A stretch of DNA of 64,000 bases from Peredibacter starrii (GCF_034259205.1 NZ_CP139487.1:930001-994000); one strand, 5' to 3'; shown: positions 3,902-27,821, counted from the first letter of the stretch. Program-made: numbers and translations. Notes: generated by a model not told the origin, from the sequence alone.

Positions 3902-3905
3902 TCCA

Positions 3906-6587: not shown

Positions 6588-6710
6588 ATGGATAACGAGC
6601 TTATCATTATGAAGATAATGAAGATTATTTTAAAAACTCTCTCCAGTCATCGCATGGAACAGCGATCTGCTGACTCGTTCTTTTTTTATAAAGGAATGAA
6701 CCATGCTTAA
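6588..6710 (+). CDS. Possible 40-codon leader ORF overlapping the next start
   Basis: An ATG at 6588, six bases after AGGA, opens a 40-codon frame ending at TAA 6708-6710, eight bases into the following gene in another frame. The predicted peptide is Ile/Lys-rich at first and has no recognisable motif. The leader is AT-rich, so an ORF this long could arise by chance. If the sigma-28-like promoter is the only one, the AGGA sits at the very 5' end of the message, which weakens the case. Confidence 0.25.
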   Translation: MDNELIIMKIMKIILKTLSSHRMEQRSADSFFFYKGMNHA

Positions 6711-8870: not shown

Positions 8871-11800
8871 ATGGGATATAAATTGAAATTACGGAACTCT
8901 CACTCCAAATTTCTTAAGACTCTTTGTGCTGCATTCGCAGTCATCAATATTTTTTCTTATGCATATGCAGAATCGTTAAGCTATTCCGGAAGACTTGTTA
9001 ACACAAACGGCTCACCAGTTGTGGGTCCGGTAAATTTAAAATTTGATCTCGCTAGCACGGCCGATACATCAACCATTCTTTGTACTCAGCAAATTTCTAA
9101 CGTTGCTCTGACAAATGGCGTGTTCCATGTGAAGCTTGATTTAAATTGTGGAGCACAAACTTTATCTCAAGTACTCGCTACTATACCATCTCCAGATACG
9201 GCCGCTATTCGAGTAACCAATGAAAGTGCAAGTAAAGCATATTCATTTCAATCTCTTCATGCAGTTCCATCAGCACAAATTGCTCATGGACTCGCAAAGC
9301 TAAATGCTAATAACAATGAAGTTCTAACTTGGACAGGTTCTCAATGGGAACCAAAAGCAATTGTGGGCGCGACAGGTGGAACTGTTACATCAATTGTTGC
9401 TGGATCCGGTTTATCAGGTGGAACAATTACAAACTCGGGAACGATTGCCATTTCAAATAGTGGAGTAACTGATTCTCATCTCGCTGGTGGAATCACACGA
9501 AGTAAAATGGCCAATGGTACTGCCAATTATGTTCTGGTGAATGATGCTTCAGGAGTAATGGGTGAAGTTGCACAGCTTCCTCTGACTAGTGGTGGTACCG
9601 GATCAAATACGGCCGCTGGAGCTCGAACTAATCTTGGTCTTGGTACAGCGGCCGTGGCCAATATTGGTGATGGACCAGGAAATGTAATGTCTGCCTCAGC
9701 AGTTCCTAATTGCTTGGCGAGTGAAAAACTTCAAATGAGTGTTGGTCCGGTTTATTCTTGGACCTGTGTTCAGGATAATGATTCACTCGATGGAACTAAA
9801 CTTCCTCTCGGTGGCGGTACGATGAGTGGTGCCATTGCCATGGGGAACAATCAAATTACAGGTCTTGCGGCTCCTGCACTCGGAACAGATGCTGCTACCA
9901 AAGATTATGTAGATACTAAAGTTGGTGCGGCCCCTGGAGATAATCTTGGTAACCACACCGCCACGACAAACTTGTCACTGGGAACTAATAGAATTTTTGT
10001 AGGTGATGGTGCTTGGAATACTCCATCAATTTCTTTCACGAGTAGTACTAATACTGGTATTGCTCAGAATGGTGGTAATATGACATTCACTTCTAGTGGC
10101 AGTCTTGCAATGACTCTTTCTGGAAGTTCACTTAATCTCAATGGTTCTTTTTCTCCATACATGAGGTTGGGAGGGGGAGTTTTTGATTCTTCAAATCCTG
10201 CCTATTCTTTCGGCGGCGATCCAGACACAGGGATGTTTAACTTATCTACGAACATTCTTGGTTTCACCACTGGTGGTGTGGAGAAAATGAGAATTCTCTC
10301 CACCGGTGAAGTGGCCATCGGTAAATCAACAGCAGCTGGCAAAGTTGATGTCGCTGGTGATATTGCCCTCGACGGAAAATTGAGAGTTAAATCGGACTCT
10401 GCAAATTATGTTGAATTCAGAGCTCCGGCGAGCCTTGGGGCAACTACAACCTATACGTTTCCTGCTACTGCAGGGACTTCAGGTTATGCTCTCACCACAA
10501 ATGGTTCAGGTATATTGTCGTGGTCACCAGTTGCAACAACCGCTTCAACGATTGGTGGAGATCTTTCAGGAACAATTGCCAACGCTCAGTTAGTTGCTAA
10601 TTCAGTTGGTACTTCTGAGATCGCAGATGCTTCGGTCACATATTCTAAACTTAGTTTAACTGATGGAGATATTCCTCAAGCGAAAGTCGCCAATCTTGTA
10701 AATGATTTGGCCGGGAAGCAACCGCTTATTGCTGCTGGAACAATGGCACAATATTGGAGAGGAGACAAAACCTGGCAGACGCTAAACACATCAGTTGTGC
10801 CTGAAGGAACAAATCTCTATTTCTTGGATTCAAGAGTTCGCACGGCCCTCATGAGTGGTTATGCAGTTGGATCTGCAGTACCACTTGATGCTACAGATAC
10901 TTTAATTGAAGCACTTGGAAAGCTTGAGGCGCAAATCATCGCCAATGATGCTGCCTTTGATAGTTCTGGAATCTGGAGTAAAAACTCATCAAATGTTTAC
11001 TATACTAGTGGATATGTCGGAGTAGGAACGAGTACTCCCATCTCTCCTTTGAATGTCGAAAAAACCTACACTGTGAATTCGACCGATGAAGAGTATGGAA
11101 TGTATGTTAAGACAGCATTTCAAGAGAACAGCACGAATTGGAAGGCCGGAATACGTGCCAATACATATCCAGCTCATGCAAGTGGCTCACTTACAAAAAT
11201 CATTGGTATGCAGTCTTTAATCCAAGGTGGAGTAAGCGGAGGAACGACGACAGATGCTAGTGCAGTTTGGAGTCGAGTTGATACAGTGACAGGACAAACC
11301 ATCACAAATGCATATGGTTTTTATGTGGAAAACGGAGCGGGAACAGGTTCGCCAATCAACCAGTTCGGTCTATATGTTCAGGCCCTAACAAAAGGCTCTG
11401 CGGATAATTTTGCGATTTATACCAGTGGTGGCACTAAAAGTTATTTTGGAGGTAATGTTGGTATTGGAACAACTGCTCCTCAAGCTGCCTTGGATGTAAA
11501 TGGTGGTATCAAACTCGGATCGATGACAACTTGCGGGGCCGCTCAAGAAGGTTCTCAGCGTTATAATTCTACTCTTAAAATCATGGAGTTTTGTAATGGC
11601 ACTGTTTGGGGAGCCATTGGAGCTCCGGCCATTCCAACCGGTGCAATCATGGCCTTTGATTTAACTTCTTGTCCATCAGGTTGGAGTGAATACACAGTTG
11701 CTCGCGGACGCTTCCTTCGCGGTATCGACAATGGTGCTGGACAAGATCCAAGTGGTACACGAGCTCCTGGTAGCTATCAAGCTGATGCTGTTCAAGATCA

Positions 11801-12005
11801 CACTCACCATGTAACTGGTGAAGGTGGGGGTTATAACAACGTGGTTGCTTTCCAAGATACCAACCCTGATTCAACCTACGGCTCAGGTGGAAACCCTGGA
11901 AGCCGTGGTGATGTTTATATTGGTGTTGGTCCAATGAGAACAGGTAACACCGCCGTTGAGACTCGTCCTCGAAACGTGGCCGTTCTCTATTGTCGAAAGA
12001 ATTAA
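8871..12005 (+). CDS. MAT-like fibre/adhesin protein A with tail-collar-like C terminus
   Basis: A 1044-residue secreted protein. The signal peptide ends near 'AYAYA' style residues 28-33; then comes the island's shared N-terminal module (34 to about 260: '[19 protein letters not shown]', 'LTNGVFHVKLDLNCG', 'LTWTG.QWEPK', '[18 protein letters not shown]'). Central modules resemble phage tail fibres ('GGTMSGAIAMGNNQITGL', 'QYWRGDKTW', 'VGIGTTAP'). Residues about 922-1044 resemble a phage tail-collar/fibre tip ('PSGWSEY', 'RGRFLRGID', 'HTHHVTG', 'ETRPRNVAVLYC'). There is no S74 domain. Start is uncertain: ATG 8871 has a weak site, while TTG 8883 is six bases after GGGA in a leader shared with the gene at 19219. 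Trimerisation and prey or surface binding are inferred from MAT and phage fibre relatives. Confidence 0.85.
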   Translation: MGYKLKLRNSHSKFLKTLCAAFAVINIFSYAYAESLSYSGRLVNTNGSPVVGPVNLKFDLASTADTSTILCTQQISNVALTNGVFHVKLDLNCGAQTLSQVLATIPSPDTAAIRVTNESASKAYSFQSLHAVPSAQIAHGLAKLNANNNEVLTWTGSQWEPKAIVGATGGTVTSIVAGSGLSGGTITNSGTIAISNSGVTDSHLAGGITRSKMANGTANYVLVNDASGVMGEVAQLPLTSGGTGSNTAAGARTNLGLGTAAVANIGDGPGNVMSASAVPNCLASEKLQMSVGPVYSWTCVQDNDSLDGTKLPLGGGTMSGAIAMGNNQITGLAAPALGTDAATKDYVDTKVGAAPGDNLGNHTATTNLSLGTNRIFVGDGAWNTPSISFTSSTNTGIAQNGGNMTFTSSGSLAMTLSGSSLNLNGSFSPYMRLGGGVFDSSNPAYSFGGDPDTGMFNLSTNILGFTTGGVEKMRILSTGEVAIGKSTAAGKVDVAGDIALDGKLRVKSDSANYVEFRAPASLGATTTYTFPATAGTSGYALTTNGSGILSWSPVATTASTIGGDLSGTIANAQLVANSVGTSEIADASVTYSKLSLTDGDIPQAKVANLVNDLAGKQPLIAAGTMAQYWRGDKTWQTLNTSVVPEGTNLYFLDSRVRTALMSGYAVGSAVPLDATDTLIEALGKLEAQIIANDAAFDSSGIWSKNSSNVYYTSGYVGVGTSTPISPLNVEKTYTVNSTDEEYGMYVKTAFQENSTNWKAGIRANTYPAHASGSLTKIIGMQSLIQGGVSGGTTTDASAVWSRVDTVTGQTITNAYGFYVENGAGTGSPINQFGLYVQALTKGSADNFAIYTSGGTKSYFGGNVGIGTTAPQAALDVNGGIKLGSMTTCGAAQEGSQRYNSTLKIMEFCNGTVWGAIGAPAIPTGAIMAFDLTSCPSGWSEYTVARGRFLRGIDNGAGQDPSGTRAPGSYQADAVQDHTHHVTGEGGGYNNVVAFQDTNPDSTYGSGGNPGSRGDVYIGVGPMRTGNTAVETRPRNVAVLYCRKN

Positions 12006-12087
12006 TTTGTTAAGTGTGATGACATTGCACTCATCCTCAATTTTAAAATTCCGCTTGTCATAATATGCTAATTTGTAAAATTTTCTT

Positions 12088-12115
12088 TAAAAAATTCCAA
12101 ACTTTCAGTCGATAT
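12088..12115 (+). promoter_or_regulatory. Weak sigma-28-like promoter of fibre gene B
   Basis: TAAA at 12088-12091, 16 bases, then GTCGATAT at 12108-12115. It has the island's spacing but two mismatches in the -10 element. The predicted leader is about 32 bases. Confidence 0.4.
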
Positions 12116-12153
12116 ATCTTCTGAATTTTAAACCGTCTCAAGGAATGCCTGAA

Positions 12154-15100
12154 ATGGGCGCTAGATATCAACTGGGAATTTTCTTTTTTCTCATTTCAAC
12201 TGCGCAGGCAGGAGATTCTCTTAGCTACTCTGGCCGAATTGTGAATACAAATGGTTCTCCTGTTGTCGGTCCGGTAAATTTAAAATTTGAACTCGCCAAC
12301 TCTGTTGATTCAACTAATATTCTCTGCTCTCAGCAAATCACTAACGTTTCCCTAACAAACGGTGTGTTTCACGTAAAGTTAGATTTAAATTGTGGGGCCT
12401 CCACTCTGAATCAAGTGCTGAGCGCCATTCCTTCGACTGAAACTCCGATCATTCGTGTAACAAATGAAACTGCAGGGAAAACATATTCCTTTCAGGCGCT
12501 GCACTCAGTTCCTTCTGCTCAAATTGCTCATGGACTTGCAAAATTAAATGCAAACAATAATGAAGTTCTTACCTGGACAGGTGCGAAGTGGGAACCTAAA
12601 CCAGTTAGTGGTGCCGCTGGCGGAACAGTCACAGAAATCATTGCCGGCTCCGGTCTCTCAGGTGGGACAATCACAAACTCTGGAACTATCTCAATTGCAT
12701 CTGGTGGGGTAGCGAATTCTCATCTTGCTGGGGGAATTGTTCGTTCCAAACTTGTAAGTGGAACCGCTAATTATGTGTTAATCAATGACGGGTCTGGGAA
12801 CATAAGTGAAGTGGCACAACTTCCTCTCTCACAAGGTGGTACAGGTGCTAATACCGCCGCGAATGCTCGAACAAATTTAGGATTAGGTTCTGCTGCAACG
12901 GCAACTATTGGCTATGCGGCCGGAAATGTTTTGCCTTCGGATAATATTCCGGTTTGTCTCCCAACTCAGAAACTACAGTTTACAGGATTAGGTCCAACTT
13001 ATTGGGGATGTGCCGCCGATGTAGATACGACATCTGATCCAACTAAGTTACCACTCGCAGGTGGTGTAATGACCGGTGAAATTAATATGGGAGTGAATAA
13101 GATTATTAATCTTGGAGCACCGATTAATCTTACTGATGCCGCCACAAAGGCCTATGTCGATAACCAAGTTGGAAGTGTTAGCAGTGGAGTGACTGGAGCA
13201 TGGGTGAGCGTGCCTCTTTCTGATACTGATGAATATGACCTTAATTGCCGTTATCAGTTTACTATCTCAGGTAGTGTTATCGTGGCAAACGTGGTGCGAA
13301 CCAATGCGATTCAACATATCTTCAATACGATGAATAGTAATACTACAATGACGTATTATTCTGTGCCTAACACTAACAAAGCGACTGCTCAATATCATCA
13401 GGACAACTGGTCGAACAATCAAATCTCCGCAAACATGACTGTAACTAGTGTGATGAAAAACTGCGGACCTACCACTCCGGTTCCGAACTCGATTGTTGAT
13501 GCTGATACCGGCACTCGAATCCAGGTAGAAGCCTCATCGAATGAAAACAGTATCCGTTTTGATACGGACGGAACGCAGAAGATGATCATCAACGCTACCG
13601 GAGAAGTGGGGATTGGAACTACGACTCCTGTCGATAAATTAGATGTGGTAGGAAACGTTGCTCTTACAGGTAAACTAAGACTAAAATCAACTACCGCCAA
13701 CTTTGTAGAACTTAAAGCTCCAAACGCGTTGGCCGCGACTTTGATTTTTAATCTACCTGGAGTGGCCGGAACTTCAGGGCAGGCCCTCGTTACTGATGGC
13801 GCAGGAAATTTATCATGGGCGACAGTTGCAACCAGTGCCACTGCCGTGGGTGGCGATCTCTCTGGAACAGTATCAAATGCGCAGATTCTTGCTGGCTCAA
13901 TAGTGGATGCGGACATTTCTGCCAGCGCCGCCATTGCTCAGTCTAAAATCAGTGGTCTTGCCTCCTCTCTTTCAGGAAAAGAGCCAACCATTACTGCTGG
14001 TACAGCGGCCCAGTATTGGAGAGGAGATAAGTCCTGGCAGACACTAAATGGTGTTGCTGTTGGAAATACGGCGGTCGGAAATATTGCGGCCACAAATGTG
14101 CAGGCGGCAATCAACGAATTAGATTCTGAAAAGCAACCTCTCATTATTGCAGGAACCACTGCTCAGTACTATCGCGGTGACAAAACCTGGAGTTCATTAC
14201 AAAGTGATGTCCAAGCTTTAGTCATGAATGGATTTGCAGTAGGAACGAATACTGCGCTTTCGAGTAGTGATACTCTTTCTGGGGCCCTCGGAAAACTTCA
14301 AGCTCAGATCAGTGCAAACCTCACAGCTTTTAATAATACCGCACAATGGAGTGAAAACGGAACCAGCGCTTATTACAATACTGGGAACGTAGGGATAGGA
14401 ACATCGGCTCCCGCTCAAAAGCTTCACATTAATAGTGGTAACATTCGAGTTGATAATGGCTCAAATGCGACTATCTTCAACAGCGGTGGTATGTACTTTA
14501 GTGGGGTGCCTGGAGCAGGAACTCATACTAATTATGTATTTCGTCCAGGTTGGGGAAGTGGTGCCAATACTCTTGCAACAATAACAGTTCAGAATGCAAA
14601 TACATCAGGTGGATATAACAACTGTGTTCATTTATCGAGTTATGGACCTTCATACTTCAGTTGTGGCGCCGTAGGTATAGGAACTGCCAGTCCTCAATCT
14701 GACTTAGATGTGAATGGAAGAATTCGAGTATCAGGCTCATCGCAACCAACTATGGAAATATATAATTCTGGAGCACCTGCAAACCAACGCTGGACTGAAT
14801 TGTTTAGTGGTACTGACGGAGTCGTTGTTTTAAGGACAATGAATGATGCATACACGTCCGGTGCTACGATTTTTCATTCACACAGAAATGCCGGAACACA
14901 TACCATTGATTATACTGTATTGGATGGAGATGTCGGAATTGGTTTTCGGCCTAGTTACAAATTTCACGCAAACGGTGTCGTCGCCGGAGTAGGTGCTTAC
15001 GTTAATGCTTCAGACAGAAGATTAAAGAAAAATATCAAACCGATTTCTGATGCAGAAAAATTACTAACTTTGCAAGGTGTATACTTTGATTGGCGACAGG

Positions 15101-15396
15101 ACGAATTCCCAAAAATGAATTTTGAGCAGGCCAATGATATGGGAGTAATCGCTCAAGAAGTGGAAAAAGTTTTTCCTGAAGCAGTAAAGACAGATAAGCA
15201 GGGTTACAAATCGGTAGCGTATTCCAAGCTCATTGCTCCTCTGATTGAAGTCACGAAAAATGAGCATCAAAAGATCAAGTCCCTTGAGCAAAAAGTTAGC
15301 TCTCTCTCAACTGCTAACGAACAACTTAGAAAAGAAAATGCCCTCATCAAAGGATATATTTGCTCTAAAGATCCTAAAGCGCTTTTGTGTAAATGA
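12154..15396 (+). CDS. MAT-like fibre/adhesin protein B with Peptidase_S74 chaperone domain
   Basis: A 1080-residue secreted fibre protein. The signal peptide (about 1-20, ending 'STAQA') is followed by the shared N-terminal module ('SLSYSGRIVNTNGSPVVGP') to about residue 250. A segment around 350-450 is unique to this copy ('TDEYDLNCRYQFTISGS') and resembles a small beta domain. Further on are modules shared with protein D ('LRLKSTTAN.VELKAP', 'SIVDADISASAAIAQ', 'QYWRGDKSWQTLN') and phage-like 'VGIGT.AP' repeats. A C-terminal Peptidase_S74 intramolecular chaperone domain starts near 951 ('SDRRLKKNIKPI', 'MGVIAQEVEKVFPEAV') and ends in a coiled coil and a two-Cys tail. ATG 12154 was preferred because AAGGA lies nine bases upstream; ATG 12145 abuts it. 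S74 domains fold fibres as trimers and may be cleaved off at the conserved Ser. Confidence 0.87.
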   Translation: MGARYQLGIFFFLISTAQAGDSLSYSGRIVNTNGSPVVGPVNLKFELANSVDSTNILCSQQITNVSLTNGVFHVKLDLNCGASTLNQVLSAIPSTETPIIRVTNETAGKTYSFQALHSVPSAQIAHGLAKLNANNNEVLTWTGAKWEPKPVSGAAGGTVTEIIAGSGLSGGTITNSGTISIASGGVANSHLAGGIVRSKLVSGTANYVLINDGSGNISEVAQLPLSQGGTGANTAANARTNLGLGSAATATIGYAAGNVLPSDNIPVCLPTQKLQFTGLGPTYWGCAADVDTTSDPTKLPLAGGVMTGEINMGVNKIINLGAPINLTDAATKAYVDNQVGSVSSGVTGAWVSVPLSDTDEYDLNCRYQFTISGSVIVANVVRTNAIQHIFNTMNSNTTMTYYSVPNTNKATAQYHQDNWSNNQISANMTVTSVMKNCGPTTPVPNSIVDADTGTRIQVEASSNENSIRFDTDGTQKMIINATGEVGIGTTTPVDKLDVVGNVALTGKLRLKSTTANFVELKAPNALAATLIFNLPGVAGTSGQALVTDGAGNLSWATVATSATAVGGDLSGTVSNAQILAGSIVDADISASAAIAQSKISGLASSLSGKEPTITAGTAAQYWRGDKSWQTLNGVAVGNTAVGNIAATNVQAAINELDSEKQPLIIAGTTAQYYRGDKTWSSLQSDVQALVMNGFAVGTNTALSSSDTLSGALGKLQAQISANLTAFNNTAQWSENGTSAYYNTGNVGIGTSAPAQKLHINSGNIRVDNGSNATIFNSGGMYFSGVPGAGTHTNYVFRPGWGSGANTLATITVQNANTSGGYNNCVHLSSYGPSYFSCGAVGIGTASPQSDLDVNGRIRVSGSSQPTMEIYNSGAPANQRWTELFSGTDGVVVLRTMNDAYTSGATIFHSHRNAGTHTIDYTVLDGDVGIGFRPSYKFHANGVVAGVGAYVNASDRRLKKNIKPISDAEKLLTLQGVYFDWRQDEFPKMNFEQANDMGVIAQEVEKVFPEAVKTDKQGYKSVAYSKLIAPLIEVTKNEHQKIKSLEQKVSSLSTANEQLRKENALIKGYICSKDPKALLCK

Positions 15397-15433
15397 TTGA
15401 TTTTACAAAGAGTGAACACTGTTAAACACTTCT

Positions 15434-15460
15434 TAATTTATTCCTTGGAAATCCCGATAA
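15434..15460 (+). promoter_or_regulatory. Sigma-28 (FliA)-type promoter of fibre gene C
   Basis: TAAT at 15434-15437, 15 bases, then CCCGATAA at 15453-15460. The transcript would start near 15467, after the TTG at 15465, which argues for the downstream ATG at 15495. Confidence 0.6.
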
Positions 15461-15494
15461 GACTTTGAGAAATCAAAGGATTAGACCCAAAAAA

Positions 15495-18400
15495 ATGGGA
15501 AAACTCTCACGCGTCTTTTATCATTTCTTATGTGGCTCTCTCATCGCCATCATCTCCGCTGCCTATGCGGAGTCGTTAAGTTATTCCGGCCGTCTGGTTA
15601 ACACAAATGGTTCACCAGTTATGGGCCCTGTAGATTTGAAATTTGATCTCGCAAGCACGGCAAATACATCGACTATTCTTTGTACTCAACAAATCACAAA
15701 CGTTTCACTTACTAATGGTGTCTTCCATGTGAAATTAGATTTGAATTGTGGTGCTCAAACTCTTTCTCAAGTGTTGGGTTCAATTATTTCACCGGATGCT
15801 GCCGCCATTAGAGTGACGAATGAAACTGCAAGTAAATCATATTCATTTCAGTCGCTACATTCAGTTCCATCGGCGGAAATCGCTCATGGTCTTTCAAAGT
15901 TAAATGCGAATAACAATGAAGTACTCACTTGGACTGGTTCTAAATGGGAACCAAAACCTATCGTTGGCGCGACTGGTGGTACGGTTACTGACATTACTGC
16001 AGGAACAGGATTATCAGGTGGAACGATTACGAACTCAGGTACTATAGCCATTGCAAATGGCGGAGTAACTGATACACATCTTGCCGGAAATATTTCTCGC
16101 TCTAAACTCGCTGCCGGGACCGCCAACTCAGTAGTTGTAACGAATGGTTCAGGAGTGATGACTGAAGTTTCACAACTTCCAGTTTCAAATGGTGGTACGG
16201 GCTCTTCAACTGCGGCCGGTGCGCGTACGAATTTAGGATTGGGTGATGCTGCTGTTGCGACGATTGGTTACGGTGCTGGTCAAGTTATGCCAGGCGAAGT
16301 TCCCATGTGTCTTTCTCATCAAAAACTTCAGATGAATTTAGGGCCAACGTTTTGGTCATGTGTGAATGATAATGATTCTCTGGATGCTACTAAACTTCCT
16401 CTTACTGGTGGAACAATGAGTGGCGCCATTGCGATGGGGAACAATCAAATCACAGGACTTGCGGCCCCGACGCTTGGAACCGATGCTGCGACTAAAGACT
16501 ATGTTGATACGAAAGTCTCTACTGCTCCTGGAGATAATCTCGGTAACCACACAGCAACAACTAATCTCGCTCTTGGATCTAACAACATTACTGGTGTTGG
16601 CACAATTTCTATTGCTAATGGTGCATGGAATTCGCCAAGCATCAACTTTACAAGTTCACCTTCAACAGGTTTCTTCAATAATGGTGGAATCATAGGATTT
16701 TCTGCTAACGGAAGTCTTTCTATGAATCTTTCATCGTCAACCCTGATTATGAATGGTTCATTTGCTCCTTACCTGCGTCTTGGTGGTGGAACTTTTAATG
16801 CTTCAAATCCAACTTATGCATTTAATGGAGATCCCGATACAGGGATATTCAATCTTTCGACTGACATTCTTGGCTTCACAACTGGTGGAGTCGAAAAAAT
16901 GCGTATTCTCGCTACCGGTGAAGTTGCGATTGGTAAATCAACAGCAGCAGGAAAACTTGATGTTGCCGGAGATGTTGCCCTGGAAGGTGCAGTAAGATTT
17001 AAGTCTGATAACGCAAACTATGTAACACTGAAAGCTCCAGCATCTCTGGGTGCTACTTTCAATTATACTCTTCCATTGACGGCTCCAACTGCGGGCCAAG
17101 TTCTTTCATCAAGTGCTGCTGGTGTTATGTCCTGGATCACACCAACTTCTTCTCCGATTACGACTGTCTTCGGAAGGACAGGGGCGGTGACTGCTACGGC
17201 CGGTGATTACTCTGGTGCTCTTATTACAAATACTCCAGCAGGAACAATTGCTGCCTCTACTGTACAAGGTGCAATTGATGAACTGGCGGCCGAAAAGCAA
17301 GCGGCAGATGCCACGCTGACTTCACTCGCTGCCTATAATACGAATGGAATCTTAGTTCAAACTGCAGCTGATACTTTCGCTGGCAGAAGTATTTCTGGTG
17401 TCGCAAATAGAACGTCAGTAACAAATGGTAATGGAGTTTCAGGTAACCCAACAGTAGACATTGATACTAATCTTCTTCCTTCACCTGCTGGTGGAGACGC
17501 TGGAAAATTTTTAAAAGCTTCTGGTGCCAATGCTTCTGCGTGGACCGCTCTGGCGGCCTTAGATATTACAAGTGCTCTGGGATTCACACCTGTTAATAAA
17601 GCAGGGGACACTTTAAGTTCCGGTACTTTCAGTTTTGGTGGGACAAGCCTTCTTCAAGTCACAAATAATCCCGTCAACGCTACTGATGTAACCAACAAAC
17701 AGTATGTGGATGGACAAATTTCAGGAGCAGGAAACCAATGGGGTCTTGCAAGTGGTAATGTTTATCGAAGCACAGGTAACGTAGGGATTGGAACTTCAAC
17801 TCCGGGTGCTCAGATTGAAGTGAGTGCAGTCAATTTGAGTCCTCGAGTAAAAGTCGTAAATACTTCAAGTTCAGGTGTAAGGTATCCAGGTTTTTCTGGA
17901 GTTAACTTCACTGGCGGTACTGCAGGATTTCCTGTTTTGGATTTATTAAACTCTCGCGGTACTGAGGCAGCTCCACTTCCAATCGTATTGGGTGACCCAT
18001 TAGGGGCAGTGACAGCAATGGGAAACCAGAATTCTGGAAGTACGGCCTTCACGAATGCCGCTCAGATTTATTTTTCGGCGGATGGAAACTTTTCCGCAAC
18101 AAGCACACCTGCAAATATCTACTTCCGAACGACTCCGGCCGGAGCAGTCAATAACGTAAACCGAATGACGATTACCTCGGGGGGCCTGGTCGGAATTGGT
18201 AACTCATCTCCAAATGCTTTACTTTCGTTAGGTGATGGCACCAGTGGTGATAAATTACTTAGAATAAATGAAACCTCTGCCACTCACAAACGCGCCTCTA
18301 TGATGCTTGGACAATGGGAGATTGGACAGGATTCTCAACCTAACAATACACGCGATTTTTTTATTTTTGATGGCTTTCAATCTCAGCAACGTCTCGTCAT

Positions 18401-19121
18401 TGGAAGTTCTGGGAATGTCGGTTTAGGCGTTAATAACCCTTCATATAAACTTCATGTCGGTCCAGGTAACTTCTTTCTAGAAAGTGGTCACCTTTTTGTT
18501 CGTCATAACAGTAATGAAGGTGGTGCGGTTCGTATTCAAAACATGCAGAAAACCGGAGCGCTTGTTAATGATTGGGTCATATATAACATGACGGGTGGAT
18601 ATAATAATGGACTTGCATTTTGGAGATACGCGGCCGATGGAACAAATCTAGGTCCTTCGATGAACTTACATGATAATGGAAACGTAGGTATCGGTACCAG
18701 TGCTCCTTCTGAAAGACTTGAAGTCATGGGTAACGTAAAAGGTGTGGCATTTCTCAATACATCAGACCGTCGCTTAAAAAGAGATATCGCGAGCATTCAA
18801 GATCCAATTGAAAAGATCAAACAACTTCATGGTGTAACTTATAAATGGAAGGAGAGTGGTGAGAAGTCAGTGGGCTTCATCGCTCAAGAAGTAGAAAAAG
18901 TATTTCCAGAATTGGTAAGAACAGACAAAGTAACTGGCATGAAATCAGTCCAATACTCAAACCTTGTGGCGGTGTTAGTTGAAGGTTTTAAAAAGCAATA
19001 CGATCAAGGTGAGAAAGAAAAAGCAGAGCTTAAAAAAGAAATCGATCGCCTTAAGGCCGAAAACGAAGAGACCAATCGTAGACTAGATAGAATTGAAAAG
19101 GCCCTCCAGAAACACCCATAA
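15495..19121 (+). CDS. MAT-like fibre/adhesin protein C with Peptidase_S74 chaperone domain
   Basis: A 1208-residue secreted fibre protein: signal peptide (about 1-25, ending 'SAAYA'), shared N-terminal module, then modules shared with A ('MGNNQITGLAAP', 'FTTGGVEKMRIL') and, after about residue 550, a long block shared with E ('VFGRTGAV', '[19 protein letters not shown]', 'ALGFTPVNKAGDT'). Several 'VGIGT' repeats precede a copy-specific tip region (about 775-1080). A Peptidase_S74 domain begins near 1088 ('SDRRLKRDIASI', 'VGFIAQEVEKVFPELV') and ends in a heptad-rich coiled coil ('KKEIDRLKAENEETNRRL'). ATG 15495 was chosen because the sigma-28 start site falls after TTG 15465; AAAGGA is 14 bases away, longer than ideal. 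Function is inferred as for protein A. Confidence 0.86.
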   Translation: MGKLSRVFYHFLCGSLIAIISAAYAESLSYSGRLVNTNGSPVMGPVDLKFDLASTANTSTILCTQQITNVSLTNGVFHVKLDLNCGAQTLSQVLGSIISPDAAAIRVTNETASKSYSFQSLHSVPSAEIAHGLSKLNANNNEVLTWTGSKWEPKPIVGATGGTVTDITAGTGLSGGTITNSGTIAIANGGVTDTHLAGNISRSKLAAGTANSVVVTNGSGVMTEVSQLPVSNGGTGSSTAAGARTNLGLGDAAVATIGYGAGQVMPGEVPMCLSHQKLQMNLGPTFWSCVNDNDSLDATKLPLTGGTMSGAIAMGNNQITGLAAPTLGTDAATKDYVDTKVSTAPGDNLGNHTATTNLALGSNNITGVGTISIANGAWNSPSINFTSSPSTGFFNNGGIIGFSANGSLSMNLSSSTLIMNGSFAPYLRLGGGTFNASNPTYAFNGDPDTGIFNLSTDILGFTTGGVEKMRILATGEVAIGKSTAAGKLDVAGDVALEGAVRFKSDNANYVTLKAPASLGATFNYTLPLTAPTAGQVLSSSAAGVMSWITPTSSPITTVFGRTGAVTATAGDYSGALITNTPAGTIAASTVQGAIDELAAEKQAADATLTSLAAYNTNGILVQTAADTFAGRSISGVANRTSVTNGNGVSGNPTVDIDTNLLPSPAGGDAGKFLKASGANASAWTALAALDITSALGFTPVNKAGDTLSSGTFSFGGTSLLQVTNNPVNATDVTNKQYVDGQISGAGNQWGLASGNVYRSTGNVGIGTSTPGAQIEVSAVNLSPRVKVVNTSSSGVRYPGFSGVNFTGGTAGFPVLDLLNSRGTEAAPLPIVLGDPLGAVTAMGNQNSGSTAFTNAAQIYFSADGNFSATSTPANIYFRTTPAGAVNNVNRMTITSGGLVGIGNSSPNALLSLGDGTSGDKLLRINETSATHKRASMMLGQWEIGQDSQPNNTRDFFIFDGFQSQQRLVIGSSGNVGLGVNNPSYKLHVGPGNFFLESGHLFVRHNSNEGGAVRIQNMQKTGALVNDWVIYNMTGGYNNGLAFWRYAADGTNLGPSMNLHDNGNVGIGTSAPSERLEVMGNVKGVAFLNTSDRRLKRDIASIQDPIEKIKQLHGVTYKWKESGEKSVGFIAQEVEKVFPELVRTDKVTGMKSVQYSNLVAVLVEGFKKQYDQGEKEKAELKKEIDRLKAENEETNRRLDRIEKALQKHP

Positions 19122-19160
19122 ATCCAATAACTTACAATGGTTATTAAGCCGTTCTTTAAT

Positions 19161-19188
19161 TAAATAACTTTCTTTAAAATGCCGATAA
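19161..19188 (+). promoter_or_regulatory. Sigma-28 (FliA)-type promoter of fibre gene D, perfect -10
   Basis: TAAA at 19161-19164, 16 bases, then GCCGATAA at 19181-19188, identical to the E. coli FliA -10 consensus. This is the best example in the island. Confidence 0.72.
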
Positions 19189-19218
19189 GACTTCTGAAAT
19201 ATCAATGGGATATAACCG

Positions 19219-22200
19219 ATGTCTGTGCGGTCTAAATTAACCTCAAAATTCTTAGTGATCACCGCCATCACATTCATTTCTTATGCATATGCTGATTCAT
19301 TAAGTTACTCAGGTCGATTGGTGAATGCTAACGGCTCGCCGGTTGTGGGTCCTGTGAATTTGAAGTTCGATCTTTCGAGTACTGCCGATACTTCAACTGT
19401 TCTTTGCTCTCAGCAAATTTCAAGTGTAGCACTCACGAATGGTGTGTTCCATGTGAAATTAGATTTAAATTGTGGAGCTTCAACACTCTCACAAGTATTG
19501 GGCTCGATTGTTTCACCTGACTCGGCCGCCATTCGTGTAACGAATGAAACGGCCAGTAAGACATATTCATTTCAATCTCTGCACTCAGTTCCTTCAGCAC
19601 AGATTGCTCATGGTCTTTCAAAATTAAATGCGAACAACAATGAAGTTCTGACTTGGACGGGTTCGAAGTGGGAACCAAAACCTGTTACGGGTGCAACTGG
19701 TGGAACCGTCACTGATATCACTGCTGGTACAGGTTTATCAGGTGGAACAATCACTAACTCTGGAACAATTGCCATCGCAAATGGTGGAGTTACCGATACA
19801 CATCTTGCCGGAAATATTTCTCGCTCAAAGTTAGCAGCGGGAACTGCTAACTCAGTGGTCATCACCAACGGGGCAGGAGTAATGACGGAAGTCGGACAAC
19901 TTCCAGTTTCAAATGGTGGTACAGGTTCTTCAACTGCGGCAGGTGCTCGCACGAATTTAGGACTAGGTTCAGCTTCCGTGGCCAACCTTGGCTATGCCTC
20001 TGGGAACGCTCTTCCTGCGGATAATATTCCTGTTTGTCTTCCGGCCTTCAAACTTCATTTCACCGGTGTGGGACCAACTTATTGGTCATGTGAAGCTGAC
20101 AACGATACAAATTTAGATGCAACTAAATTACCACTTGCTGGTGGAACAATGACCGGCTCAATTGATATGGGTACTAAATCCATTATCAATCTCGCAAATC
20201 CTGTTGATCCTGCTGATGCTGTTAACAAGGCCTATGTTGATGCTCAGGTCGGTGGTTCATCTTCTTGGACTAAAAGTGGATCTGATATTTACAACAACAA
20301 CTCAGGAATGGTGGGAGTTGGGCTTTCTTCTTTTTATCCTGATATGAAATTTCAAATTGAGACTCGCCCAATCAATGCAAACGGAAGAGCAATCAATGCG
20401 GATTTAAGACAGCATACTACGACCAATGGTACCTACGGCCTGCTAGGTGGTGTTTTCAAGGGGCAAACAACGATCGCAAGTGGTGTTACCAATGCCGGAA
20501 ATTTAACTGGTACCTGGTCTGTGGCCTTTAGAAATAATCTTCCCGGAACTTTGGATAATGGAACACTTGCGGGTATCAAAGGCGATTACATTCAGTATGG
20601 ACATTATAATAGCGAAGCCGCTTCAACTCCATTAACGACTGACGTCTATGGATTGTACTTATCTCCACATTATAAAACCGGAACGATCTCTAATCTCTAC
20701 GATATTTATGTTCACTCGGGATCAGGTGGTGGATCGGTCTCTAACTATTATGGCTTGTACCTGCCTGGTTCGGCCAAGAAGAACTACTTTGAAGGTAATT
20801 TGGGTATCAATGTTTCTTCGCCAACAGAAAAGCTTGATGTGGATGGTAATATTGCGGCGACTGGAAAGCTTCGTCTAAAATCAACAACAGCAAACTATGT
20901 CGAGTTAAAAGCTCCTGATGCCCTCGCTTCTACTCTTACATTTAATCTTCCTGGCACAAACGGAACTTCTGGACAGGCCCTCATTACAGACGGTTCTGGA
21001 AATTTATCTTGGTCAACAATTTCAGCTTCTGGAACTTCAGTCGGTGGGGATTTAACCGGAACAGTTTCAAATGCTCAAATTGCGGCAGGAGCGATTGTTG
21101 ATGCTGACATTTCTGCAAGTGCTGCCATTGCTCAAACAAAGATTAGTGGGCTTGCGGCTTCATTCACGGCCAAGCAAGATTTTATCACGGCCGGAACAAC
21201 AGCTCAGTATTGGAGAGGGGACAAGTCTTGGCAGACTCTCAATACAACCGCAGTTGCAGAAGGAACAAACTTATACTTCTTAGATTCACGTGTGCGTGCA
21301 GCGCTTATGGCGACTTATGCAACTGGTTCCGCTCTGCCAGTAAGTACATCGGATACTCTTCTTCAAGCACTTGGAAAATTAGAAGGTCAAATCGTTGCCA
21401 ACAAAGCAGCCTTTGATGGCTCTGGGGTGTGGAGTAAAAACTCTACAAATGTTTATTACAACGGCGGGAATGTTGGGATCGGGACGAATACCCCTGTCCA
21501 GGCACTGGATGTGAGAGGTTCGATCTCTGCCCTAGGACGAATCTATGACGACACAGGGGCCTCTCTAGAATTAGGTATCTCAGGAAAAGCAACTTCTATC
21601 AACGATGGTGAGCTTCAAATTTCTTCTTCAGGATATGTTGGTGTAGGTACTACGAATCCTCAAGCTCGTTTAGATGTGGACGGTTCTCTACAATTAGGCC
21701 GCGCAGTTGATAATAGCACCTCTCGCTATTTAAATATTCAAACCGGTACTGATACCAATAATGCTGGTAATGGATTCGCAAATGGGGATTCTGTTATCAG
21801 GTTAGATGGAGGTGCCAACTCTGGAACGAACACTCTACATCTTTTTGGGAATGGATCTCGAGTTCTTAATCTGGATCTGTTTGATGGTAGCTTGTTTGTT
21901 GCAAATAAATTAGGAATCGGAACAGCGGCCCCATCAGGACGTCTCACTGTCTCGAGCCAAGGTAACACTCTTACAGATTATACGGCCCGTTTTCAGAGTA
22001 GCGGGACAGTAGCTGGAGCTGGTGGTATTTTATTTGATCAAAATTCAGCTTATTCATTCAAGCTTCATACAGAGGGGACTTCTGCCACTTCTGGTCGAAT
22101 GGTTTTCAGTTACATCAATCCAACAGATGGAACTGTTACAAATGACAACATACTGACCTTAGGGCGCGGTTTTGTGGGGATTGGAACAAACGTGCCAGTT

Positions 22201-23082
22201 ACGTTGCTTTCAAATATCCCGAACACCGATTCGTGGAGCAACGTAGGAGATGTGAACGGCACCGGACAAAATACTCAGTCATTCAGCTGGAAAACAAGTG
22301 CTGCAGGCTATTCTGCGGCGATCATCAATACCAATTCTGGCGTCACAGGTAATGGTCTTCAAGTAAGAACGACAGGCACATCTTCCGGTCATAATATTTT
22401 CACTGCGGGTACTGGAGTCGCTTCAGGAGCTAATACGGATATTTTCAGCGTAAGAGGTAATGGTACTGTCGGTATCAATATGATTACTCCACAGGCCGCA
22501 CTCGATGTGAATGGATATTCTGCTTCTCCAGGTGTCGGGACCATGAGAATTAGAAACTCCTATAACTCAGGTGGATCTCGATACTGGCAAATTGGGCCAG
22601 ACGGAAATGGTAGCGGAAACTTTGTGGTTTACACTGATGGTCTTGCTGGCGCCTATATCGTTTATGGTCAGACGGCCTGGAGTTCAAGTTCAGATAGACG
22701 TCTTAAAAAGGAAATCGAGCCAATTGAAGACTCGCTTTCAAAAATCATGCAACTCAATGGTGTGACCTATAAATACAAGAAGGACAAAGAGTCTGATCCA
22801 AGAAAGGCAGGTGTGATTGCCCAGGAATTGAAAAAGGTTCTACCTGAAGCAGTGACGGAGGCCGATGGTTACTTATCAGTTAAATATACCGAGATCATTC
22901 CACTTCTTATCGAAGGTATCAAAGATCTCTTCAAAGAGAATAAGCGTGAGATAGCTTCTGTCAAAGCTGAGACAGATGCACGAATAAAAAAATTAGAAGC
23001 AGAGAACGCCGCTCTCAAAAAACAAAATGCTGAAATGAATGCTCGCCTTGATCGAATCGAAAAGTCCTTAAACCGTCCTTAA
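19219..23082 (+). CDS. MAT-like fibre/adhesin protein D with Peptidase_S74 chaperone domain
   Basis: The largest of the set, 1287 residues. The signal peptide ends near residue 25 ('SYAYA'); the shared N-terminal module follows ('[19 protein letters not shown]'). Residues about 350-530 are a copy-specific region ('MKFQIETRPINANGRAIN', 'YGLYLPGSAKKNYF') of a kind common in bacterial S74 proteins. Next come modules shared with B ('LRLKSTTANYVELKAP') and with A ('EGTNLYFLDSRVRAALM'), several 'VGIGTN.P' repeats, and a Peptidase_S74 domain from about 1154 ('SDRRLKKEIEPI', 'AGVIAQELKKVLPEAV') with a coiled-coil end. ATG 19219 has GGGA eight bases upstream. An ATG at 19204 opens only a short out-of-frame peptide. 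Promoter and leader resemble those of gene A. Confidence 0.87.
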   Translation: MSVRSKLTSKFLVITAITFISYAYADSLSYSGRLVNANGSPVVGPVNLKFDLSSTADTSTVLCSQQISSVALTNGVFHVKLDLNCGASTLSQVLGSIVSPDSAAIRVTNETASKTYSFQSLHSVPSAQIAHGLSKLNANNNEVLTWTGSKWEPKPVTGATGGTVTDITAGTGLSGGTITNSGTIAIANGGVTDTHLAGNISRSKLAAGTANSVVITNGAGVMTEVGQLPVSNGGTGSSTAAGARTNLGLGSASVANLGYASGNALPADNIPVCLPAFKLHFTGVGPTYWSCEADNDTNLDATKLPLAGGTMTGSIDMGTKSIINLANPVDPADAVNKAYVDAQVGGSSSWTKSGSDIYNNNSGMVGVGLSSFYPDMKFQIETRPINANGRAINADLRQHTTTNGTYGLLGGVFKGQTTIASGVTNAGNLTGTWSVAFRNNLPGTLDNGTLAGIKGDYIQYGHYNSEAASTPLTTDVYGLYLSPHYKTGTISNLYDIYVHSGSGGGSVSNYYGLYLPGSAKKNYFEGNLGINVSSPTEKLDVDGNIAATGKLRLKSTTANYVELKAPDALASTLTFNLPGTNGTSGQALITDGSGNLSWSTISASGTSVGGDLTGTVSNAQIAAGAIVDADISASAAIAQTKISGLAASFTAKQDFITAGTTAQYWRGDKSWQTLNTTAVAEGTNLYFLDSRVRAALMATYATGSALPVSTSDTLLQALGKLEGQIVANKAAFDGSGVWSKNSTNVYYNGGNVGIGTNTPVQALDVRGSISALGRIYDDTGASLELGISGKATSINDGELQISSSGYVGVGTTNPQARLDVDGSLQLGRAVDNSTSRYLNIQTGTDTNNAGNGFANGDSVIRLDGGANSGTNTLHLFGNGSRVLNLDLFDGSLFVANKLGIGTAAPSGRLTVSSQGNTLTDYTARFQSSGTVAGAGGILFDQNSAYSFKLHTEGTSATSGRMVFSYINPTDGTVTNDNILTLGRGFVGIGTNVPVTLLSNIPNTDSWSNVGDVNGTGQNTQSFSWKTSAAGYSAAIINTNSGVTGNGLQVRTTGTSSGHNIFTAGTGVASGANTDIFSVRGNGTVGINMITPQAALDVNGYSASPGVGTMRIRNSYNSGGSRYWQIGPDGNGSGNFVVYTDGLAGAYIVYGQTAWSSSSDRRLKKEIEPIEDSLSKIMQLNGVTYKYKKDKESDPRKAGVIAQELKKVLPEAVTEADGYLSVKYTEIIPLLIEGIKDLFKENKREIASVKAETDARIKKLEAENAALKKQNAEMNARLDRIEKSLNRP

Positions 23083-23129
23083 GTTTACCTCCGCTTTGTC
23101 TTCAATAAAGCACAATCTTTAACAACTCG

Positions 23130-23157
23130 TTAATAATTTTCTGTGCTGCCTTATACT
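23130..23157 (+). promoter_or_regulatory. Possible sigma-70 promoter of fibre gene E
   Basis: TTAATA at 23130-23135, 16 bases, then TATACT at 23152-23157. Unlike the other fibre genes, no CCGATAA element is visible here. Weak prediction. Confidence 0.3.
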
Positions 23158-23187
23158 TATTCAGGGACGAATAAGAAGAGGTAGTTC

Positions 23188-26088
23188 TTGAAAAAAACTA
23201 AACGGCTTAATAATGCATTTTTTTGTGTTGTGGCCTTGTTAATTTCCGGTCATGCGAGTGCAGAATCGTTAAGTTACTCAGGACGATTGGTGAACTCTGA
23301 TGGGTCACCAGTGACCGGACCGGTAGATTTAAAATTTGAAGTTGCTTACTCCGGTTCCACCGGTACTATTCGATGTACCTCCGATGTAAATGCTGTCTCA
23401 CTCACGAATGGAGTTTTTCACGCAAAACTCGCATTCATTTGTCCGACCTCTTCCTTATATGAAGTATTAAGTAGCGTTCCTGCAGGAGAGGACGCGGTTA
23501 TGCGTGTGACGAATGAAACGGCCGATCCCGATAGAGTTTATTCTTTTCAGACCATCAACGCTGTTCCTGTCGCTCAAATGGCCCATCAACTTCCTAAAAT
23601 GGATGCAACTAATGATCAGGTTCTTACTTGGACAGGATCCAAGTGGGAACCGAAATCCGTCACAGGTGCTACTGGCGGAACTGTGACTTCTGTCGCAACA
23701 GGTTCCGGATTAACAGGTGGACCATTTACTACGACCGGAACGATTTCAATCGCCACTGCCGGAGTATTGGATTCACATCTGGCTTTCGGAATTGCGAGAG
23801 CAAAACTTGCAGGTGGAACTCCTAATTATGTTTTAGTAAACGATGGAAGTGGTGCTTTAACTGAAGTAGCACAACTTCCTCTCACCCAAGGTGGAACTGG
23901 CGCCAACACTGCTGCACTTGCTCGAACAAACTTAGGACTGGGGAACGCGGCTGAATCCAACATTGGATATTCCTCTGGAAATGTGATGCCAGGTGATGGT
24001 GTGCCTGTCTGTTTGTCCTTTCAGAAATTGCAATTCACCGGAACTGGGCCGACTTATTGGTCATGTGCCGTGGATAATGATTCGGCAGATGCATCGAAAT
24101 TACCATTGGCCGGTGGAACGATGGCCGGTGCCATCAATATGAATAATAATTTTATTACAGGTGTTCGCTCTCCATCTGATCCTGGTGATGCTGTTAATAA
24201 GGCCTACGTAGATGCACAGGTGAGTGGCTCATCATTTTGGACATCGAATGCTTCAAATTTGTCTTACGGATCAGGAAATGTTGGAATCGGAAATTCTTCT
24301 CCCGCCGAAAAACTTGATGTTACCGGGAACATTGCTCTAACGGGTGGATTAAAACTTCAATCGAGCAGTACCAATTATGTCACGTTAGCAGCACCAGCTG
24401 CCTTAAGTGCCAACATTACTTACACTTTACCATTAACGGCCCCGAGCAATGGACAGATTCTTTCTTCGTCAGCTGCTGGAGTCATGAGTTGGATTACTCC
24501 AGCAAGTGCTATCACAAATGTCTTTGGTAGAACAGGTGCTGTGTCTGCGGCATCAGGTGATTACAATGCTTCACTTATCACGAACTCACCATCGGGAACT
24601 ATTTCAGGAACTACAGTTCAAGCGGCGTTAAACGAACTCGATACTGAGAAGCAAGCGGTGGATGCCACACTCACAGCACTCGCGGGCTACAATACAAATG
24701 GAATTCTTGTTCAGACCGCCGCTGATACATTTGCGGGAAGGAGTATTGTAGGGGTCACGAATAGAACGAATATTACCAATGGAAATGGTGTTTCAGGAAA
24801 CCCTACAATAGATATCGACACGACCTTATTACCTTCGCCGAATGCAGGCGATATTGGGCGATTTTTAAAGACCACTGCCGCCAACACTTCGGTATGGAGC
24901 TCACTTGCTTCCGGCGATATCACTACCGCTTTGGGTTTTACTCCAATTAATAAGGCAGGGGACACCATTGCTTCTGGGACTCTGGAATTTAATTCAGCAG
25001 GGATTTTAAAACTTTCGAATCCCCCAGTGAATCTAACAGATGCCGTGAATAAACAATATGTGGACAATCAGATCACTGGTGCAAGCAACCAATGGTCTTC
25101 CTCAAGTGGAAACTTGTATCGTGCTACTGGAAATATAGGTATTGGAACGACCTCGCCAACTGTTCCTCTGGCAATTGGTGGAAGTTTATTTGCAAATACC
25201 TCAAATCAAATTCACATCGTTAATACAGGAACATTTAGTAGAATTGCTTTTGGTGAAGACCTCAATAATTATGGTGAAATGATCTGGAGTGATATCAGTG
25301 ATCACATCTCGTTTAATACCAAAAGGGCAGGTTCAAGTTTTTCGAATGCGTTGGTTGTCAGAGATGACAAGGTCGGTATCGGAACTGCTACACCAGGAAG
25401 TGCTCTGGATATTACCAAAACAGATCCTATTGTTAGAGTTAAAAACATCGGTGGTGATATTGGCGGTATGTTTTTAATGAATTCTGTAAATGCTGGGTGG
25501 CTAGGAATGTTTAACCCTAATTCTTCCACGACTTTTGGAGTCATTCCTACTTTAACATCTAAGACATATCTGGCCTGGGATAATTCGGGAAAAATTGGAT
25601 CGGTCTCGAATACATTCACGACTGGGAATCCAGGATCACCTGTTTATCGAAACTTGCTGGATGACGGTTCTGGAAAAATGGGAATTGGAACCTCTTCTCC
25701 TACCGAAAAACTTGATGTGAGTGGTACTGCCACTATGAACGCTTCCACTGAGGGCATATCAACTTACGCGACCTCAGGAACCACATATACGATTTTGGAT
25801 TCTTCACTAAATATTCGGCGTATTACCTTGAATGCAAATGCGACCATCAATTTACCTGCTTTTGCTTCAATGTGGCCCAAGGTTTACACACTCACCGTTT
25901 TCTTGAAGCAGGATGCAGTTGGATCACGGACCGTTAATTTTAATGGTAATGGTGGGGATACAGTGAAGTGGGATAGTGGGGCCGCCCCTTCAATCTCACT
26001 GACTGCGAATAAGATAACTATCGTACAATTCACAAAACCTTCAGATGAAACTGTATGGTATGGATCTAAGGTATGGCAGGAAGACTAA
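23188..26088 (+). CDS. MAT-like fibre/adhesin protein E with unrecognised C-terminal beta domain
   Basis: A 966-residue secreted fibre protein that starts at TTG 23188, six bases after AAGAGGT. The signal peptide ends near residue 25 ('SGHASA'). The shared N-terminal module is more divergent here ('[20 protein letters not shown]'). The middle carries the long block shared with C ('[10 protein letters not shown]', '[15 protein letters not shown]', '[11 protein letters not shown]', '[11 protein letters not shown]'-like) and 'IGIGT.SP' repeats. There is no S74 domain; residues about 865-966 ('[16 protein letters not shown]', '[15 protein letters not shown]', '[12 protein letters not shown]') look like a small all-beta domain of the type found at phage fibre ends. 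The BspA-like gene starts inside its last 16 bases, so both are probably one transcript. Confidence 0.85.
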
Positions 26089-27821
26089 GTTTATTTATCT
26101 TTGCCGTCTTAATTTTTCTTCTCTTCTTTGAGAGTGTGCACGCTTTTACGGGCACTCGCATGCGCAGACCTCAAAATGCAGATATACCGATGATCATGAT
26201 CTGGAAAACTGACAATCCTGGTACTACAGCGAGTAATCAGATTCAATTACCTCTGGCCGTAGGTGCTACCTATAATTTTACTGTTGAATGGGGAGATGGA
26301 ACGACGACGATCATTACGGCTTACAACCTTACCGCTGCTACTCACACTTATGCTACGCCCGGAACTTATACTGTTAAATTGAAAGGAATTTTTACAAGAC
26401 TTCGATTTAATAACGGAGGCGATCGCGAAAAGCTCTTAGATATCACTCAGTGGGGATCGAATCGCTGGACCAGTATGGCCGAGGCCTTCTATGGTTGCAC
26501 CAATTTACAGATTAGTGCTGTCGATGCCCCCGTATTTAAAGTACCGGTAAGCATGGCAAGTATGCTTCGAAAAACGACGAATTTTAATAGTTCAATCGGT
26601 CACTGGGACACAAGCAAAGTAACCAGCATGTTCTATATGTTTGGTGATGCTGCCAACTTCAATCAGAATATTAGCTCTTGGGATACGTCAGCTGTCAATG
26701 ATATGGGTGGTATGTTTGCAGCAGCTTATGCTTTCAATCAACCTATCGGCACTTGGGATACTTCGTCCGTCATTAGCTTTGTATCAATGTTTAGTAATGC
26801 AACAGCTTTTAATCAAGATATCGGTGCATGGAATACTTCTTCCGCTACAAATATGAGCGCAATGTTTTTTCTCGCTTCAGCGTTTAATAAAAATATTGGT
26901 TCATGGAACACTTCTGCTGTTACGAATATGTCCAATATGTTCAATGGAGCTTTAGCATTTAATCAAAATATTAGTTCTTGGAATACGGCCGCTGTTATCT
27001 ATATGAATGGGATGTTCCAAGTCGCCATGTCCTTTAACCAACCAATAGGTTCATGGAACACTTCTAGTGTTACAAACATGTCTTCTATGTTTAGTAGGGC
27101 CTATGCTTTTAACCAACCACTCAATACATGGAACACATCTGCTGTTACTAATATGAGTGGAATGTTTTATACAGCATTGGCCTTCAATCAATCCCTTAAT
27201 TCTTGGGTCACGAGCAGTGTAACAAATTTAAGCGCAATGTTTCAGAATGCCTCTGCTTTTAATGGATCAATTGGTAATTGGAATGTGTCCGCAGTTACGA
27301 ACATGAACTCGATGTTCAGTGGAGCTTTAGCGTTTAATCAACCCATTGGTACATGGAACACTTCAGCTGTCACAGATATGAATTCAATGTTCAGTGGGGC
27401 ATCCGCTTTCAATCAACCAATTGGAACTTGGAATACTTCTTCTGTACAATTTTTTCAGTCAATGTTTAGAACTGCGACTTCATTTAACCAGGACATTTCG
27501 ACTTGGAATACCTCTTCGGCCCTCGTTTTGAATTCGATGTTCCAAGGTGCCACGTCCTTCAACCAACCAATCGGTTCTTGGAATACATCAAGTGTCACGA
27601 ACTTTGGATTTATGTTCACAGGAGCGTCAGCTTTTAATCAACCTCTTGCTGCATGGAACACTTCTTCTGGAACGACCATGAGTTCAATGTTTCAAAATGC
27701 CACGGCCTACAATCAAAACTTAACCGGATGGACAGTAAATCCTAATGTGACTACTTGTAGTAGTTTTGAAAATTCCGCTGCCTGGACGCAAATCCCTGCC
27801 TTCGCAAATTGTACGCCATAA
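26073..27821 (+). CDS. BspA-like repeat surface protein (DUF285) with PKD-like domain
   Basis: A 582-residue exported protein: signal peptide 1-24 ('SVHA'), a PKD-like beta domain at about 42-110 ('[15 protein letters not shown]', '[13 protein letters not shown]'), then from residue 171 fifteen consecutive 25-residue repeats of the DUF285/BspA type ('[20 protein letters not shown]') and a partial sixteenth. Two Cys in the C-terminal cap ('[10 protein letters not shown]', 'FANC') may form a disulfide. BspA-like repeats are found in adhesins of bacteria and protists. The gene overlaps the fibre gene upstream by 16 bases. The ribosome site is poor (AAGG touches the ATG), so translation probably relies on coupling. 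Binding partner unknown. Confidence 0.87.
26583..27707 (+). repeat. Fifteen 75-base coding repeats (BspA/DUF285 units)
   Basis: Each unit encodes 25 residues with conserved FNQ, a Trp at position 8, T/S-S at 10-11 and MF at 19-20. DNA copies differ by many synonymous changes, so the array is old rather than freshly expanded. A degenerate sixteenth unit follows to about 27782. Confidence 0.85.

Follow-up and report, generated by a model that had tools for sequence, protein, structure and literature searches.

Genes and features of the locus

The window, that is, the whole 64,000-nt stretch analysed here (G000:C1:930001-994000), comes from the 4.15-Mb, single-contig genome of Peredibacter starrii, and all positions are counted within it. 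Five successive plus-strand open reading frames (ORFs) of 966-1287 aa each, at 8871-26088, encode what are almost certainly MAT-type fibre proteins (MAT 1 to MAT 5). The array and its immediate neighbours comprise the following features.

6703-8775, + strand: candidate presentation partner of the MATs, 690 aa; hydrophobic anchor at the N-terminus, RRPAS at residue 49, Ser/Thr/Gly linker of low complexity, C-domain at residues 396-690
7426-7862, + strand: tandem repeats coding for the partner linker, periods 15-78 bp (TRF)
7888-8772, + strand: partner C-domain with conserved cysteines (family alignment A4)
8871-12005, + strand: MAT 1, 1044 aa; tail-collar-like tip (phrog_523), no S74
12145-15396, + strand: MAT 2, 1083 aa; S74 tip, SDRRLK at residue 956
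15465-19121, + strand: MAT 3, 1218 aa, start TTG; S74 tip, residue 1100
19219-23082, + strand: MAT 4, 1287 aa; S74 tip, residue 1158; shaft in common with a lipoprotein fibre
23188-26088, + strand: MAT 5, 966 aa, start TTG; other phage-like tip, no S74
26073-27821, + strand: secreted DUF285/PARCEL-repeat protein with a PKD-like stretch

A gap of 95 bp separates the partner gene from MAT 1, the gaps between successive MAT genes are 139, 68, 97, and 105 bp, and the end of MAT 5 overlaps the downstream gene by 16 bp. No terminator was found in the gaps between the array genes, and a promoter scan of the array gave no excess over shuffled sequence. All five proteins begin with a Sec-type signal peptide, as read from the sequence, directly followed by a MAT-type N-terminal beta domain of ~110-130 aa. 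The first ~330 residues constitute a common module that is 56-82% identical among the five proteins, far above chance, and after this module each protein continues into a phage-fibre-like shaft and then a tip. Many PHROG tail-fibre families are matched by the shafts and tips, and a beta-helix capping-loop motif (V-G-x-x-...-P-x-x-x-L type; a pattern composed for this analysis) occurs in two to four copies per MAT. Pfam Peptidase_S74 (PF13884) ends MAT 2-4 with 57-73 bits (curated cut-off, 22) and is absent from MAT 1 and MAT 5 in the same type of scan. The first-pass annotation had described five consecutive genes for secreted fibre proteins with a shared N-terminal module and centres resembling phage tail fibres; the ORFs, signal peptides, and module identity bear out the former point, and the PHROG matches the latter.

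Just before the partner gene, a small cluster of Zn_protease-like, 7TM-transglutaminase-like, and sugar-transfer ATP-grasp genes is located at 3419-6459. The protein that follows the array had been called BspA-like; the gene is indeed there, and its product is identified instead as a DUF285/PARCEL-repeat protein with a PKD-like stretch. Whether this protein is part of the MAT system is uncertain, and a homologue adjoins a MAT in another neighbourhood (L080).

The many PHROG tail-fibre matches could be taken to mean that the array is a remnant of the tail-fibre module of a prophage or tailocin. However, the fibres carry signal peptides and the MAT N-terminal domain, housekeeping genes flank the array on both sides, and base composition is flat over the window, with no break. 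Prophage structural genes beside the array, which the first-pass annotation had named as evidence that would speak against it, were looked for and none was found. A prophage origin was rejected on the basis of neighbours and composition, and we give the remnant explanation practically no credence.

Relationship to the MAT superfamily

The first-pass annotation had noted a resemblance to the MAT proteins of Bdellovibrio, and this resemblance proved to be true homology, as supported by the N-terminal profile match, the matches to the curated family below its cut-off, the SDxxxK motif, and the capping loops. In profile-profile comparison, the window-type and Bdellovibrio-type N-terminal domains aligned from end to end (98.7%, E 4e-16; inputs, A2 with 16 relatives and A3 with nine sequences, eight from genus g51 and one from family f24). 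NCBIfam NF053851 (Bdello_MAT_N) matches all five MATs at 18.5-25.2 bits, so that the curated family threshold of 60 is not reached. Because the domain homology is clear yet the Bdello_MAT_N scores are 18-25 bits versus 60, the window proteins are placed, on these profiles, in a divergent branch within the MAT superfamily and outside the curated Bdello_MAT_N family. Structures 8ojn, 8onb, 8onc, and 8okw ("cell wall surface anchor family protein") are taken by us to be the MAT tips of PMC10769870. Genus g51 is treated as Bdellovibrio-type on two grounds: these solved structures are matched by two of its proteins (one 8ojn/8onb/8onc, the other 8okw), and many others score far over the Bdello_MAT_N cut-off.

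The MAT N-terminal domain was modelled with a pLDDT of 72. The model had no match in the PDB at E <= 0.001, in agreement with the report for Bdellovibrio (PMC10769870), and no significant match among viral structures. A scan of a genome-contig collection with the N-terminal alignment returned one match only, in a distant Bacteroidetes MAG.

Five MATs in tandem are ordinary for this group. The Peredibacter starrii genome has 12 MAT N-terminal domains in total, with further arrays besides the one in the window; three sister genomes (G082, G087, and G081) carry long MAT arrays, and arrays of more than five genes occur among sister genomes. Bdellovibrio-type genomes contain runs of MATs ~4 kb apart (e.g., G139:C1:3172320, 3176067, and 3180359). 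The array had been proposed as a novelty for the lineage, and the sister-genome arrays together with the Bdellovibrio runs rule out its uniqueness.

Other fibre bases and shaft mosaicism

In the same genome, S74-type fibres are built on three N-termini: MAT, lipoprotein, and type IV pilin-like. The lipoprotein fibres (eight copies) begin with a lipoprotein signal, have a conserved N-terminal domain other than that of the MATs, and mostly end in S74 tips. Some of their genes (loci L061, L062, L063, L064, L068, and L069) form arrays, and some are interspersed with MATs (3.046-3.067 Mb); this fibre type is widespread in family f1. The pilin-like S74 proteins number five, and Pfam N_methyl was matched in one of the four that were scanned. 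Three of them are encoded by tandem genes, each pilin-like with a C-terminal S74, directly after ftsA- and ftsZ-like genes (L067:3043-7768; G000:C1:349043-353768), and two more lie at ~913 kb and ~507 kb. Matches in the search for this third class are probably mainly to pilin-like N-termini in general and have little bearing on pilin-S74 fusions.

The N-terminal domains of MATs and lipoprotein fibres have no similarity, whereas shaft modules are common to both. Residues 307-725 of MAT 4 are 50% identical to lipoprotein fibre II_1819 (E 1e-113), the best match of MAT 1 residues 321-430 among all fibres of the genome is lipoprotein fibre II_3954, and the best match of MAT 3 changes several times along its length. 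Because the DNA identity of shared modules is mostly 65-80%, the exchange of shaft modules is mostly old. Recent gene conversion between shafts is unsupported, given this identity and the shortness of exact runs.

Anatomy of the upstream partner

The gene before the array had been annotated as a linker protein. A gene is indeed present at that position, and it is really a member of a conserved, MAT-linked, and previously undescribed family. Among the 35 partner copies that have an N-terminal part, 31 are strongly hydrophobic over a stretch close to the N-terminus, and 30 carry R-x-P[A/S]-S within residues 40-78; the frequency of this motif among other ORFs of at least 250 aa is 0.8%. A polar linker follows, mostly of 105-165 aa (342 aa in the window copy), and then a Cys-containing C-domain of ~290 aa. 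Three copies start with a lipobox-like signal instead and have almost no linker. The two designs may mean that the C-domain has to act at the outer membrane: in one, a long linker would span the distance from the inner membrane, and in the other, a lipid would anchor the protein on the spot. The linker repeats at 7426-7862 could differ in length among strains.

No Pfam family matches the window C-domain above cut-off, and no NCBIfam family matches the partner protein, which also has no match to known chaperone families or to the TonB family. CHB_HEX_C_1 shows a weak resemblance in 8/17 family members. The partner profile found nothing meaningful in the PDB and no solved relative, and AlphaFold prediction of the C-domain from one sequence gave no usable model (pLDDT 36).

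Distribution of the partner and linkage to MATs

We searched 293 genomes of the phylum with completeness of at least 85%, using a partner profile built from MAT-adjacent copies, and found the partner in 25 genomes of family f1, among them all 23 with a window-type MAT; one genome outside f1 had a weak partial match. Co-occurrence of partner and MAT gave a Fisher P of 3e-32, a value that overstates independence as the genomes are related. Within the fibre-bearing f1 genomes, the partner was present in 23/23 with a window-type MAT versus 0/29 with lipoprotein fibres only, and in 0/3 of those with a Bdellovibrio-type MAT but without a window-type MAT. Presence and absence of partner and MAT co-vary within genera g1, g4, g11, g17, and g43, and therefore the association is not one inherited block.

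No more than 2.5 kb separates most partner copies (27/37, across 22 genomes) from a MAT domain; of these copies, 15 are upstream and co-directional, and 12 are divergent. The other 10 are away from MATs, including four orphan copies (L180, L181, L182, and L184) that share one neighbourhood beside an aroA-like gene in four sister genomes of one clade. Two genomes have a partner without a window-type MAT: G009 retains only a decayed remnant of the partner C-terminal end (L189:8283-8566), and G097, a fragmented genome, has a lipoprotein-type copy. A lipoprotein-type partner also adjoins a minimal MAT of 305 aa in G025 (L193:5554-6471), in which the N-terminal domain is followed almost at once by an S74-like domain (SDKRKKK). 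In genomes of genus g16, inferred to be Halobacteriovorax-like, one partner adjoins one detected MAT. A partner counterpart was also sought in the sampled neighbourhoods of Bdellovibrio-type MATs, and none was found. As Bdellovibrio-type MATs lack the partner, it is not a general requirement of MATs.

Proposed model and alternatives

We propose, with a probability of roughly 50%, that the locus is an operon-like array of five divergent MAT-type surface fibres headed by a dedicated presentation partner that serves in export and/or anchoring. In this model, the Sec pathway would carry the fibres into the periplasm, with the conserved ~110-aa N-terminal beta domain as the docking end, a modular shaft, and a swapped tip; in MAT 2-4, the S74 chaperone may fold the tip into a trimer before releasing it. 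The partner, fixed in the membrane by its N-terminal helix (or, in three relatives, by a lipobox), would reach outward via its disordered linker, and its Cys-containing C-domain would act on the MAT N-terminal domain by physical contact, so that the fibres are exported across the outer membrane and/or held there. The partner is a candidate for MAT presentation because of the 23/23 versus 0/29 split, the linkage of 27/37 copies, the co-variation within genera, and its anatomy; the remnant in the MAT-less G009 is also counted in its favour. The 10 copies apart from MATs and the lack of a partner for Bdellovibrio-type MATs count against it. A broader version we hold somewhat more tentatively: the partner family would be the export and anchoring apparatus for the whole MAT branch, acting as a tether on the N-terminal domain, and S74-type fibres would stand on three bases, with shaft modules exchanged between partner-linked MATs and lipoprotein fibres.

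In the closest rival explanation, the product of the upstream gene would be a separate surface or periplasmic protein, such as an adhesin or envelope protein, which is co-regulated with the MATs without contacting them. The orphan copies away from MATs are compatible with such a protein, as is the weak CHB_HEX_C_1 resemblance, which fits a carbohydrate-related or structural beta domain. Co-regulation by itself, however, hardly explains why the partner follows fibre type so strictly among the f1 genomes, or why it occurs in two different gene layouts, and we consider it less likely than our model. Less probable again is a periplasmic folding or quality-control factor for MATs (a chaperone or disulphide-related protein) that neither exports nor anchors them. 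Conserved cysteines in the C-domain and large, beta-rich clients are what such a factor would have, but the partner does not match known chaperones, fixation in a membrane combined with a long linker is rather what one expects of a tether, and lipoprotein fibres bear the same S74 tips and manage without it.

As for what the presented fibres do, they are most likely surface fibres with different binding tips, predicted to be exported or anchored by the partner. The tips may bind other cells, perhaps prey: Bdellovibrio displays its MATs on the cell surface, and prey-type glycans are bound by one of the tips (PMC10769870); by this homology prey recognition by the window MATs is a plausible prediction. 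The genome has both HMG-CoA reductase and DHBP synthase, a combination that does not decide between lifestyles. General attachment to surfaces, biofilm, kin, or a host, rather than prey recognition, would be consistent with the wide spread of lipoprotein-type S74 fibres in family f1 and with the small effects of single MAT deletions on predation in Bdellovibrio (PMC10769870); the display and glycan binding of the studied predator's MATs argue against it, and we judge it the less probable function.

Significance

What is new here is the MAT-linked partner family; the fibres themselves are of a known kind, and tandem arrays of them are common. Among open-licence papers, term searches of two comparative studies of predatory Bdellovibrionota turned up no description of such fibres or of a partner-like gene. 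Identification of the surface element bound by the MAT N-terminal domain is still awaited (PMC10769870, discussion), and the partner family offers a specific, testable candidate for this question of surface attachment, because in our sample it occurs in every genome with this MAT branch and never with lipoprotein fibres alone. Genus g16, with its one partner and one detected MAT, is the simplest setting for the partner role. Shaft modules common to differently anchored fibres illustrate a way in which a lineage can fit its surface fibres with new parts.

Comparison with known systems

TonB-type inner-membrane tethers consist of a membrane helix, a long flexible linker, and a folded C-terminal domain. 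The partner resembles them in predicted layout, and differs in having no match to the TonB family and, in some copies, in being a lipoprotein whose linker is short. The downstream gene has the repeats of PARCEL-repeat surface proteins (TIGR02167, DUF285) and, unlike these, adjoins a MAT array and contains a PKD-like stretch. With phage S74 tail fibres and tailspikes (PF13884), the window fibres share the C-terminal S74 with SDxxxK and shafts resembling PHROG tail fibres, whereas they are bacterial proteins that carry signal peptides for secretion, and their genes have no phage genes nearby. Compared with the MAT superfamily of Bdellovibrio bacteriovorus (Caulton et al. 2024, PMC10769870), their N-terminal domain is divergent in its Bdello_MAT_N score, and the window has a linked partner gene where none was found in the Bdellovibrio-type genus; in common with that superfamily they have a Sec signal peptide, a homologous N-terminal beta domain, a modular shaft with capping-loop motifs, both S74 and non-S74 tips, and many copies per genome.
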